64,000 nucleotides of DNA. Source: Aquisalinus flavus (GTDB lineage: Bacteria; Pseudomonadota; Alphaproteobacteria; Caulobacterales; Parvularculaceae). Position 1 is the stretch's first letter; each line of letters starts with the position of its first letter. A model generated the notes under the pieces. It did not search any database. It saw only the letters and a program-made list of their open reading frames with translations, and was not told where the DNA came from. Where the stretch lies: contig NZ_CP042288.1 in the NCBI RefSeq assembly GCF_022559625.1, forward strand, positions 1,808,155 through 1,872,154. The letters are read 5' to 3'. The translations under genes and the position numbers were made by a program. Shown in pieces: positions 43,214-48,354 of this stretch.

Positions 43214-43957
43214 ATGGCCGGTCACTCTAAATGGGCAAACATCCAGCATCGCAAGGGGCGCCAGGACGCCAAGCGGTCGAAGATGTTCTCCAAATTGTCG
43301 AAGGAAATCACCGTCGCTGCCAAGATGGGCACGCCGGATCCGGACATGAATCCGCGCCTGCGCCTTGCCGTCGCCAACGCCAAGGCAGTGTCCATGCCCA
43401 AGGACAATATCGAGCGCGCCATCAACAAGGCGGCCGAGGCCGGCGGCGATGACTATGAAGAAGTGCGCTATGAAGGCTTCGGGCCCGAGGGCGTCGGTAT
43501 CATCGTCGAGGCGCTGACAGACAACCGCAACCGCACCGCCTCGGACGTGCGCTCGACCTTCTCCAAGAATGGCGGCAATCTCGGCGAGACCGGCGCGGTT
43601 TCGTTCGGCTTCGACCGGGTCGGCCAGATTCGCTATGCTGGCGATGTCGCGACCGAAGACGAGATGATGGAAGCGGCGATCGAGGCCGGTGCCGACGATG
43701 TCGTCTCCTCCGGGGATGGCCACGAAATCTATACCGCCATCGAGGATCTCAACGATGTCTCGCGGGCTCTGGAAGAACGCTTCGGCGAGGCCCAGGGCAC
43801 CGCGCTCATCTGGCGGCCGCAGAACCTTGTTCCGGTCGAGGGCGAAAAGGCAGGCACGGTGTTCAAGCTGGTCAACACACTGGACGATCTCGACGACGTT
43901 CAGAACGTGTATGCCAATTTCGACATCTCCGACGAAGACATCGAAAAATACGCCTGA
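43214..43957 (+). CDS. yebC: YebC/PmpR family regulator / translation factor
   Basis: Protein of 247 residues. The family start [39 protein letters not shown] is complete; next come [28 protein letters not shown]-type and [44 protein letters not shown] segments and the C-terminal acidic domain. Members were described as DNA-binding regulators, and recent work on the family also links them to relief of ribosome stalling. It lies close to efp (2 kb away), another stall-relief factor. A strong hairpin precedes the start. Confidence 0.95.
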
Positions 43958-43977
43958 TTTCACGTCTCTGGGCAAAG

Positions 43978-44005
43978 CCGGCCGAGCGCCGACAGGCCGG
44001 TTTTT
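43978..44005 (+). terminator. Intrinsic terminator of yebC
   Basis: CCGGCC (43978-43983) and GGCCGG (43995-44000) form the stem, followed directly by TTTTT (44001-44005), 21 bases after the yebC stop. Confidence 0.75.
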
Positions 44006-44019
44006 CCGCAACCTCATTT

Positions 44020-44033
44020 ACTAAATATTTAGT
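44020..44033. promoter_or_regulatory. BlaI-type operator in front of the DUF2807 gene
   Basis: ACTAAATATTTAGT is a perfect 14-bp palindrome of the form ACTA-N6-TAGT, the core of BlaI/MecI dyads (known sites read TACTACA..TGTAGTA). It lies 64 bp before the ATG at 44097; a TATACT hexamer (44053-44058) that may be the -10 element lies just downstream. The same pattern occurs twice in front of the blaI-like gene 2.2 kb away. Confidence 0.65.
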
Positions 44034-44096
44034 TGCTGGTAAAAGGTGATTATATACTGTTTGCTGAGGGGAAATATTCCGAAGGAGGAGCGAGCA

Positions 44097-45170
44097 ATGA
44101 TTAACCGTCCAACAATCGGCCGCCAGGCAAGGGTGGCCATCTCCGCTGGCCTGTTTGTATCGGTCCTCGGCATCGGATGCGCGCAGGCAGAGGTGAAGAC
44201 CAGCGACTTCAGCGGTTTCGACAGGGTGATGCTGGAGGGTTTCATCGGCACCGTCAGCGTTACGATTGGCGACGGCGATGCCATGTCCGTCACCATCGAT
44301 GACCGGAACGGCGGCAAGGAGCCCGTCCTCGTCGAAAAGAACGGTGCGACCGTGCGGGTCTACAGCCGCGACGAACCTGACCACAAGGATATCTGGCGGC
44401 AGTTGAACTGGCAGCGCGACGGCAGCAAGGCCTTCCGCAATTTCCTCACTGATTATCCTGTCATCCAGATCACCCTGCCCGCCGGAACCGATCTCGTCGC
44501 CGACGATCTCGCCGCCTTCGTGACCATTGGTAATCTGGACAGCGACCTGACGATCGAGAGTACGATTTACATGGAAGGCACGATCGGGAACCTCGCCAAT
44601 GTCGACATCAATATTTCCGGTGCCGGGGACCTGATGCTCGCGAATGTGACAGGCGGCATGAACAGCAATATCGCCGGGTCCGGCAGCCTGAAATTCGATA
44701 CCGTAGGATCGGCGGCCATTGCCATCGCCGGCTCGGGCGATGTCTCCGTGCGCCGCGTCAGCGGGCCGGCAGAAGTCGATATCCGGGGCTCCGGCGACGT
44801 CTTCCTCGGTGAAATCGGCGCGAGCGCGGATCTGGACATCGCTGGCTCAGGCGATATCGAGGCCGGCGATGTGAGTGGCGGCCTGACCGTCAAGATCAGG
44901 GGGTCGGGCGATATTTCCGTCGGCAGCATCAACGGCCCGACGGAGGTCGATATCGTCGGCAATGGCGATGTCAGCATCAAGGATGGCGATGCCGCCGATA
45001 TGCGCGTCAATATCAGCGGGTCCGGCGATCTCGATTTCGGGGGCATCGCCTCCAATCCCAGCGTGTCGATCCGCGGGTCCGGCGATGTCTATATCCGCGA
45101 TTATACGGGCAAGGTCTCGACCAATGGCTCAGGGGACATCACCATCGGCAATATCGTCATCGACGACTGA
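44097..45170 (+). CDS. Exported DUF2807 (head GIN) adhesin-like protein
   Basis: Protein of 357 residues. The signal peptide ends near GIGCAQAE (about residue 30). Residues about 30-150 are a mixed start (FSGFDRVMLEGFIGTVSVTIGDGD). From about 165 to the end, about 17-residue repeats of the type xxIxGSGDVxxxxxxG give a beta-solenoid: AIAGSGDVSVRRVSG, DIRGSGDVFLGEIG, DIAGSGDIEAGDVSG and KIRGSGDISVGSING. DUF2807 proteins are secreted or surface-bound in many bacteria; function is unknown. GGAGGAG supports the start. A BlaI-type palindrome overlaps its promoter region. Confidence 0.85.
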   Translation: MINRPTIGRQARVAISAGLFVSVLGIGCAQAEVKTSDFSGFDRVMLEGFIGTVSVTIGDGDAMSVTIDDRNGGKEPVLVEKNGATVRVYSRDEPDHKDIWRQLNWQRDGSKAFRNFLTDYPVIQITLPAGTDLVADDLAAFVTIGNLDSDLTIESTIYMEGTIGNLANVDINISGAGDLMLANVTGGMNSNIAGSGSLKFDTVGSAAIAIAGSGDVSVRRVSGPAEVDIRGSGDVFLGEIGASADLDIAGSGDIEAGDVSGGLTVKIRGSGDISVGSINGPTEVDIVGNGDVSIKDGDAADMRVNISGSGDLDFGGIASNPSVSIRGSGDVYIRDYTGKVSTNGSGDITIGNIVIDD

Positions 45171-45192
45171 TCGCCGCCCGGAATCATCCCCC

Positions 45193-45223
45193 AAAAAGCC
45201 GGGCGCCCTGCCCGGCGTTTTTT
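45193..45223 (+). terminator. Intrinsic terminator of the DUF2807 gene
   Basis: GCCGGGC (45198-45204) and GCCCGGC (45210-45216) with loop GCCCT, followed by TTTTTT (45218-45223), 28 bases after the stop. The A-tract before the stem could allow action in both directions. Confidence 0.88.
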
Positions 45224-45235
45224 GTGGCCACGAAT

Positions 45236-45274
45236 GAAAAAGCCGGACCGCGCGATGTCGCTGCAGGTCCGGCT
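45236..45274 (-). terminator. Orphan intrinsic terminator facing the minus strand
   Basis: AGCCGGACC (45241-45249) and GGTCCGGCT (45266-45274) form a 9-bp stem with a 16-base loop. On the minus strand the stem is followed by TTTTT (45241-45237). No minus-strand gene lies upstream of it before kdsB, so it must end an unannotated transcript or act as a backstop. Confidence 0.6.
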
Positions 45275-45322
45275 GATTAGTGGACGTTTCCCATCCCTTT
45301 ATATGCCTGCCACTTTCTTGAT
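45237..45322 (-). ncRNA. Candidate small RNA ending at the orphan terminator
   Basis: On the minus strand a TATAAC hexamer (45329-45324) with TTGCCG 19 bases upstream (45354-45349) could start a transcript near 45320 that would run about 85 nt to the terminator at 45236-45274. The spacing is long and the element overlaps a plus-strand -10, so support is weak. No conserved RNA family is recognised. Confidence 0.25.
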
Positions 45323-45561
45323 TGTTATAATGTGACAGTTTTTAGTCACGGCAATACACCCCATGTCAGGATGAAAAACAAGACAGAATCGTCGCTGCAA
45401 TGCAACAATTCTGCAACATTATGGCAACGAACCCTGCGCGCGGGCACCGGATTGTTTCTGTTGCAAGGAAATGGGCAACATGCCACAAGCACGCGCACCG
45501 TTTAGGCATGGCCGGCATCAGCCTGGCCCGTCCGTAAACCACGACAGCAGCAGGAAAAAGC
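45275..45561 (+). promoter_or_regulatory. efp promoter region and long leader
   Basis: This gene-free stretch contains TGTTATAAT (45323-45331), a perfect extended -10 element, and directly after it the inverted repeat GTGAC (45332-45336)/GTCAC (45345-45349), which would overlap the transcription start. If used, the efp leader is about 220 nt. The rest (45350-45561) contains several GCAAC words and a 3' AGGAA in front of the ATG; I see no riboswitch or conserved leader fold. Confidence 0.4.
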
Positions 45562-46125
45562 ATGAAGATCAACGGCAACGAAGTACGTCCCGGCAACGTC
45601 ATCCAGCATCAGGATTCCCTCTGGGTCGCGGTCAGGACCGAAGCCGTGAAGCCCGGCAAGGGCCCGGCCTATGCCCAGGTCGAACTGAAAAACCTGCTCG
45701 ACGGGCGCAAGCTGAACGAGCGTTTCCGCGCCTCCGAGACCGTCGAGCGCGTGCGCCTTGAGCAGAAGGACCATACTTACCTGTACAAGGAAGGCGAACT
45801 TCTGATCTTCATGGATTCTGAAAGCTACGAGCAGATTTCGATCCCGGCCGACATGATCGGCGAACGCACGGCGTTCCTGCAGGACAATATGCCGGTCGTG
45901 CTCGACATGCATGAAGGCACGCCGATCGGCGTACAATTGCCCCAGTATGTCACGCTGGAGATCGTCGAGACCGAGCCGACCGTCAAAGGTCAGACGGCGT
46001 CGTCGTCGTACAAACCCGCCATTACCGATAATGGCGTGCGCGTGATGGTGCCCCCCTATATGACGACGGGCGAGCGCATCGTCGTCGACACTGAGACGGT
46101 CGCATACGTCAAACGCGCCGAGTAA
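45562..46125 (+). CDS. efp: Translation elongation factor P
   Basis: Relieves ribosome stalling at polyproline motifs. The protein has 187 residues: an N-terminal KOW-like domain with [16 protein letters not shown], domain II with [34 protein letters not shown], and C-terminal [24 protein letters not shown]. Lys33 in PGKGPA is the site that EpmAB-type enzymes modify; Lys rather than Arg argues against the EarP rhamnosylation system. The modification genes are not in this window. Confidence 0.97.
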
Positions 46126-46177
46126 CCCTCTCCCCCTCGCCCGAAATGGCGCAGCTGCCGCTTCAGGCTGAAATGTT

Positions 46178-46191
46178 ACTAAATGGATAGT
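46178..46191. promoter_or_regulatory. BlaI-type operator 1 of blaI-M56
   Basis: ACTA-AATGGA-TAGT: inverted ACTA/TAGT with six bases between, the BlaI/MecI dyad core. Its centre is 44 bp from that of operator 2, close to four helical turns. Confidence 0.65.
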
Positions 46192-46221
46192 TTCGGAGGC
46201 AGCGGATTCCGAATATCCTGA

Positions 46222-46235
46222 ACTATAAGCTTAGT
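46222..46235. promoter_or_regulatory. BlaI-type operator 2 of blaI-M56
   Basis: ACTA-TAAGCT-TAGT, ten bases before the blaI ATG at 46246. It contains a TATAAG hexamer that may be the -10 element, so bound repressor would block polymerase and perhaps the ribosome site GAGG (46237-46240) region. Confidence 0.65.
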
Positions 46236-46245
46236 CGAGGATATC

Positions 46246-46626
46246 ATGCCGCGAAAACCGTCTCCCATTCTGACCGAAGCCGAGCAGCGCGTGATGCAGG
46301 CGCTGTGGGAGTTGAAGGAAGCTTCCGTGCGCGATGTACATGAGAAGCTGAACGGTATCAGGAAGGTCGCCTACACCACCGTGCTGACGGTCCTGAAAAT
46401 CCTGCACGACAAGGGCTATGCCAACTATCGCAAGGAAGGGCGCGCCTTTGTCTATTATCCGGTGCTGAGCCAGAAGGAGGCACGCCAGCGGGCTTTGTCG
46501 CAGCTGGTCAGCCGGTTCTTCGAGGGCTCACCGCAGGCGCTTGCCGAACATCTCGTCGAACTCGACGAAATCGACATCGACGACCTCCAGGCCTTGAAGA
46601 AGGAAATGGACGACACAACATCCTGA
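46246..46626 (+). CDS. BlaI/MecI/CopY-family transcriptional repressor
   Basis: Protein of 126 residues. The winged helix (about 8-75) has LTEAEQRVMQALWELKEASVRDVHEKLNGIRKVAYTTVLTVLKILHDKGYANYRKEGRAFVYYPVLS, typical of BlaI. The C-terminal dimerisation part has SQLVSRFFEGSPQALAEHLVE, which in BlaI/MecI contains the proteolysis-sensitive site. GAGG is five bases before the ATG. The gene is followed 36 bp later by an M56 peptidase, the usual receptor partner, and is preceded by two matching operators, so autoregulation is likely. Confidence 0.93.
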   Translation: MPRKPSPILTEAEQRVMQALWELKEASVRDVHEKLNGIRKVAYTTVLTVLKILHDKGYANYRKEGRAFVYYPVLSQKEARQRALSQLVSRFFEGSPQALAEHLVELDEIDIDDLQALKKEMDDTTS

Positions 46627-46662: not shown

Positions 46663-48354
46663 ATGGATCTACCCGGCCTTTTTACTGAAATTGCCTTTCG
46701 CCATCTGTGGCAGGGTCTTCTCATCATTGGTATTGTCAGCCTGCTGCTCGCCGGCAAGCGGTTCTGGAGCGCCGAGCATCGCTCCTGGTTATGGACGGCA
46801 GGTCTCGTCCTGTCCGCGATCCTGCCGGTAGCGACGCTGATCGATATCCCGACGATCCAAGTCGCCAGCGCCGCCGCGCCGGGCGCAGGCATGGCGGTGC
46901 CGGCTGCTGCTGCCCCGGCGATTCATCCGGTTCAGGTCAAGGTCTTCGCGCCGCTGGCTGGCGCCCTCGAAATGCTGCCGCTGCCGCTGATCCTCGCCGC
47001 GCTCGTCTCCATCTGGATCGGCGTCGGTGTCTGGAAGATTTTCCGCATCGTGTCGGCCGCACGCCAGACCCATGACCTCGTCCAGACGCTGAAGCCCTGC
47101 CCGCTGTCGACGGACATGCTGCCCCGCGACTGGCCGGAAGAGATCGATGTGATGCAGGCCGAGGGCGTGAGGACGCCGATGGCGATCGGCCTGTTCAGCT
47201 ATCGCGTGATCCTGCCGGCAAGCCTCGTCGCCAGCCTGCCGACCCATCAGATCCGTCATGTCCTGTCCCATGAGCTTGCCCATATCCGGCGCGGCGATCT
47301 GCAATTCGCGCTGGTCCAGCGCCTGATCGAAGCCGTGTTCTGGTGGAGCCCGCTGACCGCTTTCATCGGGGCGCGCCTGCGCGAAGAACGGGAAATGGCC
47401 TGTGACGACCGGGCCGTCGCCATGAATGGCTGCTCACGCCAATATGCCAGCGCCCTTCTGGAAAGCGTGACCCTGCTCGTTGCCGACAAGCGCAAACATG
47501 GATACGGCCATCTGCATGGCAAAAGCTGCAGCGACATGCTCGCCCTGTCCGCTTTTGACCACCAGTCGCGCGGTGCTTTCCGCGCCCGCATCCGCCGCCT
47601 GATCGGCCAGGGCTATCGTGCCCGTGTCGATATCGGCCGCATACAGATTGCCGGGGTCTCGATGGCCGGCGTTGCTGTGCTCGGCCTGTTCCTGCTTTCC
47701 CCGCGCGGCGTGCTCAGCTCAGGCCTCGACACTGCCGTGGAGCGCCCCTATCTGACCGCCGGCATGGAGTCGTCGATGCCGGATAAAGGTTTCGCCATGT
47801 CAGATGCAAGTCTGCAGGCGCTGCTGAACGACCTGCGGGCAGCGAGCCCCGAGGCCATCCGTATCGAGATGATCCCCGCCTTCGCGGAAATTCCCCTGCC
47901 CCGGCTCGCCATCGCGGCGGCCCCGGGCCCCGAGAGCTTGCCTGCCGTCGGCAAATCGGGCCTGAGACATCCTGAAGAGCAGTGTCAGGACCCGCATCAT
48001 CACGACCATGATGCCGATTTCCATATGGATATGGATAGCCACCATGACATCGATATCGACGTGAACACCATAACCGCCATGGCCACATCTGCCCGTATCG
48101 AGATCGAGAAGCTGGAAATGACGAGCGAGGTGGTGAACCCGTCACCCGAAAGGACGACGGAAGTCATCGTCATCACCCGCGAAGGCAACAGCAACCGGGT
48201 CGTCAAGCAGGTCATCCGTCACCGCGACGCCCAGAGCCTGAGCATCGCCTCGCGCGACGGCCGTACGCTGACAATGACGCTGCAGGAGGGCATGGACGGC
48301 ACCTTTGCCTACCAGATGTCCGGCGGCGTCGGTGAAATCGTCACCGTTCAATGA
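46663..48354 (+). CDS. M56 family (BlaR1-like) membrane metallopeptidase
   Basis: Protein of 563 residues. Membrane helices lie near 15-30, 41-60, 105-128 and 328-346. The zinc site HELAH is at 203-207 in a cytoplasmic loop, with the third-ligand region EEREMACDDRAV at about 241-252. The C-terminal part (about 350-563) is periplasmic and has no penicillin-binding domain; instead it carries a His/Asp-rich stretch at 445-467 (HHHDHD, HMDMDSHHDIDIDV) and a final beta-rich segment. By family precedent it should cleave or inactivate the neighbouring BlaI-like repressor after sensing an envelope signal, perhaps a metal. Confidence 0.9.
   Translation: MDLPGLFTEIAFRHLWQGLLIIGIVSLLLAGKRFWSAEHRSWLWTAGLVLSAILPVATLIDIPTIQVASAAAPGAGMAVPAAAAPAIHPVQVKVFAPLAGALEMLPLPLILAALVSIWIGVGVWKIFRIVSAARQTHDLVQTLKPCPLSTDMLPRDWPEEIDVMQAEGVRTPMAIGLFSYRVILPASLVASLPTHQIRHVLSHELAHIRRGDLQFALVQRLIEAVFWWSPLTAFIGARLREEREMACDDRAVAMNGCSRQYASALLESVTLLVADKRKHGYGHLHGKSCSDMLALSAFDHQSRGAFRARIRRLIGQGYRARVDIGRIQIAGVSMAGVAVLGLFLLSPRGVLSSGLDTAVERPYLTAGMESSMPDKGFAMSDASLQALLNDLRAASPEAIRIEMIPAFAEIPLPRLAIAAAPGPESLPAVGKSGLRHPEEQCQDPHHHDHDADFHMDMDSHHDIDIDVNTITAMATSARIEIEKLEMTSEVVNPSPERTTEVIVITREGNSNRVVKQVIRHRDAQSLSIASRDGRTLTMTLQEGMDGTFAYQMSGGVGEIVTVQ

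Follow-up and report, generated by a model that had tools for sequence, protein, structure and literature searches.

Candidate operators of a BlaI-M56 pair at its own operon, a TonB-dependent receptor gene and other envelope genes in Aquisalinus flavus

An autoregulated BlaI-M56 pair of Aquisalinus flavus is likely to control a TonB-dependent receptor (TBDR) and a handful of envelope or exported genes through ACTA-N6-TAGT dyads. The pair was found in a 64,000-nucleotide stretch of the genome, the whole of which is called the window here. In the proposed mechanism, a BlaI dimer would bind the dyads in promoter regions and repress its own operon, a TBDR and, in Aquisalinus, other envelope or exported genes, including one for a DUF2807 protein. 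With its periplasmic part, the M56 protein would sense an envelope or metal-related signal; the metalloprotease would then cleave BlaI, the dyads would be vacated and the gene set would be induced. This model draws on the dyads, their conservation and intergenic placement, the families of the neighbouring genes and an intact protease motif.

Dyads in the window and in the genome

The features of the window that are considered below are as follows.

44020-44033, no strand: operator-like dyad ACTAAATATTTAGT before the ATG of the DUF2807 gene (pattern search, conservation in G002)
44097-45170, + strand: exported DUF2807 protein (head GIN domain, putative beta-solenoid), 357 aa; Pfam PF10988, E 1.7e-16
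45562-46125: elongation factor P gene, between the DUF2807 gene and blaI, without a dyad of its own
46178-46191, no strand: predicted blaI operator 1 (distal, -68), ACTAAATGGATAGT; a dyad stands here in 6/6 genomes of the genus and in many distant orthologues
46222-46235, no strand: predicted blaI operator 2 (proximal, -24), ACTATAAGCTTAGT (pattern search, conservation in G002)
46246-46626, + strand: BlaI/MecI/CopY-family repressor, 126 aa; Pfam PF03965 (Penicillinase_R), 116 bits against a cut-off of 22.6
46663-48354, + strand: M56 (BlaR1-type) membrane metalloprotease, 563 aa; Pfam PF05569, HELAH at residues 203-207

The preliminary description had reported three dyads and, by eye, no fourth copy. 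Indeed, a pattern search of the full 64,000 nt returned exactly these three matches and no other, whereas 100 dinucleotide shuffles gave a mean of 0.03 matches and none of them reached three. The first base of the dyad lies 77 bp before the ATG of the DUF2807 gene, and 68 and 24 bp before that of blaI. Local repeat duplication was considered as the origin of the dyads and dropped; the three are alike in the core and unlike in spacer and flanks. A sigma-70 scan from 43900 to 46300 found a single promoter-like site where 1.1 were expected, and none at the dyads. A gene for a YebC protein (Pfam) is also among the neighbours in the window.

The whole genome (G000; one contig of 3,135,332 bases) contains 10 copies of ACTA-N6-TAGT, and 48 of the reversed pattern used as the control. 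All ten, seven outside and three inside the window, were intergenic according to a codon-usage gene caller, which was trained on the window and assigns 88.6% of it to genes. The dyads are rare, in agreement with the earlier view that they are no chance feature. Being trained on a GC-rich window, the caller misses genes in AT-richer relatives (the TBDR gene in L079 was missed), and "intergenic" is less sure there. Furthermore, a search with ACTAWWNNWWTAGT allowing one mismatch gave 15 places in G000 (5 exact, 3 with an exact core and one W departure, 7 with a changed core) and 21 places in the sister species G002 (5, 5 and 11, respectively). The changed-core places are spread over 24 possible core changes, and the exact core is therefore in excess.

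The repressor, its own operators and the M56 protease

Upstream regions were compared for 80 loci with orthologues of blaI. In the 250 bp before the gene, an exact dyad was present at 47/80 loci against 5/4165 background windows, and a dyad with at most one mismatch at 60/80 against 91/4165; two or more dyads stood upstream at 41 of the 80. These counts, like those for the TBDR and DUF2807 genes below, treat related genomes as separate, and sister species are not independent samples. Among the 50 of the 80 loci that were listed, the dyad accompanies blaI in Alphaproteobacteria, Gammaproteobacteria and part of the Zixibacteria. Many distant orthologues again have a proximal dyad, at about -16 to -24, and Maricaulis, Colwellia and Pseudoalteromonas show both it and the distal one near -68. 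Within the genus, the proximal dyad was present in G000 and G002 only. The two dyads before the window blaI are probably its self-operators, and the expectation that the dyads would be conserved in relatives holds across phyla for these sites.

The placement of the distal dyad was examined at 39 of the 80 loci, mostly from Alpha- and Gammaproteobacteria and picked after the dyad near -68 was known. Of these, 35 carry TAGTTG at this dyad, all outside Aquisalinus/Parvularculaceae, and only the four Aquisalinus/Parvularculaceae records (L187-L190) lack it. A -35 box would therefore be overlapped by the right arm in those 35 loci, a promoter overlap predicted from this 39-locus comparison. Since the window blaI dyad reads TAGTTTCG, which lacks TAGTTG as do the genus records, such an overlap is not supported at blaI here. 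The DUF2807 dyad of the window does read TAGTTG, the right arm of ACTAAATATTTAGT continuing into TTAGTTGCTG.

The strict form ACTAANNNNTTAGT, which would miss ATA-type sites, was present in 7/8 distant alphaproteobacterial genomes. It was located only at blaI in six of these, and at blaI and one other place in the seventh (G068). From the blaI dyads of distant orthologues and this mostly blaI-only distribution, autoregulation seems to be ancient and the broad regulon found for this BlaI clade seems to be an Aquisalinus feature.

There are three BlaI genes in G000. The two other paralogues are preceded by TGCGACACATGTCGCA and TGTGACATGTGTCACA and have no ACTA dyad; the ACTA dyads were accordingly assigned to the window BlaI by exclusion, not by proof. 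At the second BlaI locus of the genome (L093:1572-5085), blaI is followed by two M56 genes, of which the distal one encodes a C-terminal M23 peptidase domain.

The protease motif of the M56 protein is intact, and H203, E204, A206 and H207 were invariant in 21/21 aligned relatives. The score against the NCBIfam blaR1_generic model was 58.6 bits, the cut-off being 400. In a structure model, the N-terminal protease part was confident and residues 350-563 had a pLDDT below 50. No Pfam family, including any beta-lactam sensor domain, was matched by the C-terminal 234 aa. This region, from about residue 350, is rich in His and Asp in G000 and G002 and is not ankyrin, and the sensor place holds ankyrin repeats in G003 and G004 (Pfam) and in G001 and G005 (by eye). 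Among M56 partners of this BlaI clade, an M23-like C-terminus was also seen at L214 (tested with Pfam) and at L223, L224 and L244, and pentapeptide repeats were seen in the M56 protein of L256.

Among solved structures, MecI chains come closest to the window BlaI. Staphylococcal BlaR1 cuts BlaI between N101 and F102 (PMC9834060). N101-F102 of the MecI chain aligned without gaps to H102-L103 of the window BlaI, and L103 was invariant in 10/10 aligned sequences. Given this alignment and invariance, we infer that repression by dyad occupancy and induction through cleavage of BlaI by the M56 protein are most likely. As to the signal, a metal or envelope cue is our guess, because the predicted output resembles that of UzcR of Caulobacter crescentus and the ectodomain is rich in His and Asp. 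Zinc, copper and uranium are the metals to which UzcR responds (PMC8963506, PMC12864828).

Predicted targets beyond blaI

The best-conserved predicted distal target is the TBDR, a family recognised by its TonB plug (PF07715). A dyad precedes its gene in 6/6 genomes of the genus, with differing spacers. For a wider comparison, a BlaI-type dyad was taken as ACTA-N6-TAGT or a perfect palindrome around ACA-NN-TGT, at most 300 bp upstream of the match. Such a dyad was found before 17/30 TBDR loci (30 loci from 36 matching genomes), compared with 12/670 background windows taken elsewhere in the same loci and 4/30 DUF2807 loci; it was absent from the other 13 TBDR loci. The dyads occur in genera g1 (6/6), g2 (G006, G024, G030), g3 (G015, G020, G031), g10 (G037, G041), g16 (G049, G057) and g19 (G052). 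A further TBDR locus outside the 30 (L163 of G033) has no ACTA-type dyad. In three genomes (L191, L299, L300), blaI, M56 and TBDR genes are contiguous on the same strand. No paper describing a TonB receptor under the control of BlaI was found in a search that left most subscription journals and all preprints outside its range.

The form of the TBDR dyad in other genera suggests another BlaI clade. In g3, such a clade carries ACTACR-NN-YGTAGT before its own gene (G015, G020, G028, G034), and the same form stands before the TBDR gene in G015 and G020, with a near form in G031, and before the DUF2807 gene in G015. The TBDR genes of G006, G024 and G030 are preceded by GCGACA-NN-TGTCGC, which resembles the form of the G000 paralogue. 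An additional BlaI-type dyad of G015 (L164:1501-1514) lies 35 bp before the gene of a 236-aa exported protein without a Pfam family.

Further sites were compared between G000 and G002, and the dyad was common to the two species in seven promoter regions. Eight of the ten G000 dyads keep 8/8 core bases at the matching place in G002, in flanks (up to 75 bp) that are 52-82% identical. These belong to blaI (two), the DUF2807 gene, the TBDR gene, a UrcA pair, an M3 peptidase, a 153-aa exported protein and a NodT/GH3 intergenic region. Under neutral drift with independent sites, the chance of 8/10 full conservation is about 5e-11 at 65% identity and 9e-5 at 82%, the pairs having been selected for an exact or near site in both species. 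Of the remaining dyads, the site at 2087129 keeps 6/8 core bases, and that at 2365101 has no evident counterpart among the G002 sites. Profile matches identified the dyad-bearing Peptidase_M3 gene, the NodT-type porin (TIGR01845, 211.9 bits against a cut-off of 210.05) and both small UrcA genes (TIGR04433); the 153-aa exported protein matched no family. The geometry is odd at some places: the M3 site lies 4 bp before the start codon, the UrcA site about 131 bp upstream and the NodT/GH3 site more than 200 bp from either gene. No beta-lactamase or PBP gene was recognised by a profile scan of seven G000 proteins around five sites, or by eye around site 2365101 and in the 287-aa gene near 2827315. 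In G001, G003, G004 and G005, the common targets recognised were blaI and the TBDR gene, and five exact sites lay inside called genes; for G001, ten of its 13 exact sites were examined.

We did not count CCTATTGTATTAGT, a one-mismatch site conserved between G000 (C1:765643, L133) and G002 (L139), in the regulon, because the TrpR/YerC-like gene that it precedes, identified by eye, probably has its own operator. The site also stands before a hisG-like gene.

These results alter the regulon as first drawn, which was confined to the DUF2807 and blaI-M56 genes of this locus. The confinement was not borne out by the seven shared promoter regions. The idea of a BlaI-M56 regulon without a beta-lactamase held up in so far as the dyads are rare, intergenic and conserved and the sensor domain for beta-lactams was not matched; the role of main target then given to the DUF2807 protein did not. 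The DUF2807 gene occurs in all six genomes of the genus and is no more than about 6 kb away from blaI in G000, G002, G003, G004 and G005, and its dyad was present in G000 and G002 only. In G002, the nearest species, 8/8 core bases are kept and 2/6 spacer bases are changed, which favours membership of the regulon and conservation in a sister species. In addition, ACTACAAATGTAGT, the operator form of another BlaI clade, precedes the DUF2807 gene in G015. Nowhere else was the dyad conserved: none was found in G001, G003, G004 or G005, and 26 of 30 homologue loci (from 53 matching genomes) lacked a BlaI-type dyad, while one of the four present (G016, at -278) may be due to chance. The DUF2807 gene is accordingly placed as an accessory, lineage-limited candidate target, not as the core of the regulon. 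Another palindrome, ATTTGCATGTTGCAAAT or a near form, stands before the DUF2807 gene in G001, G004 and G005 (L050, L051, L052).

Outside the genus, a DUF2807 match (E 1e-5) was obtained at 1/80 BlaI loci, namely L247. At this locus (L247:8381-10681, Eremiobacterota), the M56 gene directly follows blaI and encodes a C-terminal DUF2807 domain (84.8 bits), and a gene for a DUF4097-type exported protein lies just upstream of blaI. No M56::DUF2807 fusion was detected at E 1e-15 in 100 genomes of the window's phylum, a set from which the known fusion holders are absent. Because DUF2807 is fused as the ectodomain in one distant M56 protein, the exported DUF2807 protein of Aquisalinus may be part of what the M56 receptor senses.

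Alternative explanations and comparison with known systems

A small local regulon, in which BlaI-M56 chiefly controls the exported DUF2807 protein, would agree with the dyad kept in G002, the proximity of the gene to blaI in G000 and G002-G005, ACTACAAATGTAGT in G015 and the DUF2807 end of the L247 M56 protein. We consider it unlikely, as the dyad is missing from four genomes of the genus and from most homologues, five further promoter regions carry it in both G000 and G002, and, among the 80 BlaI loci, DUF2807 accompanies BlaI outside the genus at L247 only. It is very improbable that the blaI dyads are genuine and the distal ones, including that of the DUF2807 gene, are chance matches. Two of the ten sites are indeed not conserved and some lie at odd distances; against this, the full conservation of the other eight is poorly explained by drift at either identity, and the exact core is commoner than its one-mismatch neighbours.

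Alternatively, the dyads might be sites of a different dimeric regulator whose palindrome is similar, and BlaI would be just one of its targets. For BlaI, MecI and CopY, an inner ACA/TGT and an operator core TACA/TGTA are reported in PMC7253601. The window dyads have ACTA/TAGT without the inner ACA/TGT, so the TACA/TGTA core is absent; the ACTACR-NN-YGTAGT of the other BlaI clade in g3 comes near to it. Moreover, the UrcA, TBDR, NodT and metallopeptidase genes resemble the set of Caulobacter UzcR, an activator of genes for UrcA, TBDRs, metallopeptidases and efflux (PMC8963506, PMC12864828). This explanation is nevertheless quite improbable. The UzcR half sites, CATTAC-N6-TTAA (PMC8963506), differ; the dyad accompanies blaI in Alphaproteobacteria, Gammaproteobacteria and part of the Zixibacteria, as the operator of an autoregulator would; and in other BlaI clades the corresponding position is taken by dyads of their own. 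An autoregulated BlaI-M56 pair with a TBDR and several envelope genes as its predicted targets thus remains our preferred reading.

We also propose, tentatively, a broader picture in which BlaI-M56 pairs would form a general system for envelope sensing, switched by proteolysis, in this alphaproteobacterial order, with one TBDR family as the ancestral output. BlaI clades with drifting operators (ACTA-N6-TAGT, ACTACA-NN-TGTAGT, GCGACA-NN-TGTCGC) would have alternated at the TBDR promoter, and the M56 sensor domain would have been freely exchanged (ankyrin, M23, pentapeptide, His/Asp-rich, DUF2807).

Taken together, the findings offer evidence from sequence that one BlaI-M56 branch may control outer-membrane import and exported proteins. 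The predicted operators are precise enough for direct testing, with a single conserved receptor gene to follow, and provide a route to learning what non-penicillin M56 receptors sense. They also make the DUF2807 and UrcA proteins part of a candidate response of the envelope.

BlaI-M56 pairs owe their name to the sensing of beta-lactams. The present pair shares with staphylococcal BlaI-BlaR1 and MecI-MecR1 the repressor family, an adjacent HExxH M56 protein and dyads before the repressor's own operon, and the outer letters ACTA/TAGT fit the mec dyad. It differs from them in that no beta-lactam sensor domain was found in the M56 protein and no beta-lactamase was recognised among the targets, the inner operator letters are different and the predicted targets are envelope proteins. 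With CopY/TcrY it shares the DNA-binding family, which scored best for the window BlaI among the NCBIfam models (68.7 bits, below the cut-off of 121.95). CopY has a C-terminal CXC metal motif, as described in PMC7253601, whereas the window BlaI has no cysteine, hence no CXC, and is paired with a protease. The functional mix of the UzcRS targets matches that of the dyad-bearing genes here; UzcRS is a two-component activator acting at another site, and the analogy is one of output only. Compared with these systems, the pair described here is a known kind of switch with new wiring.
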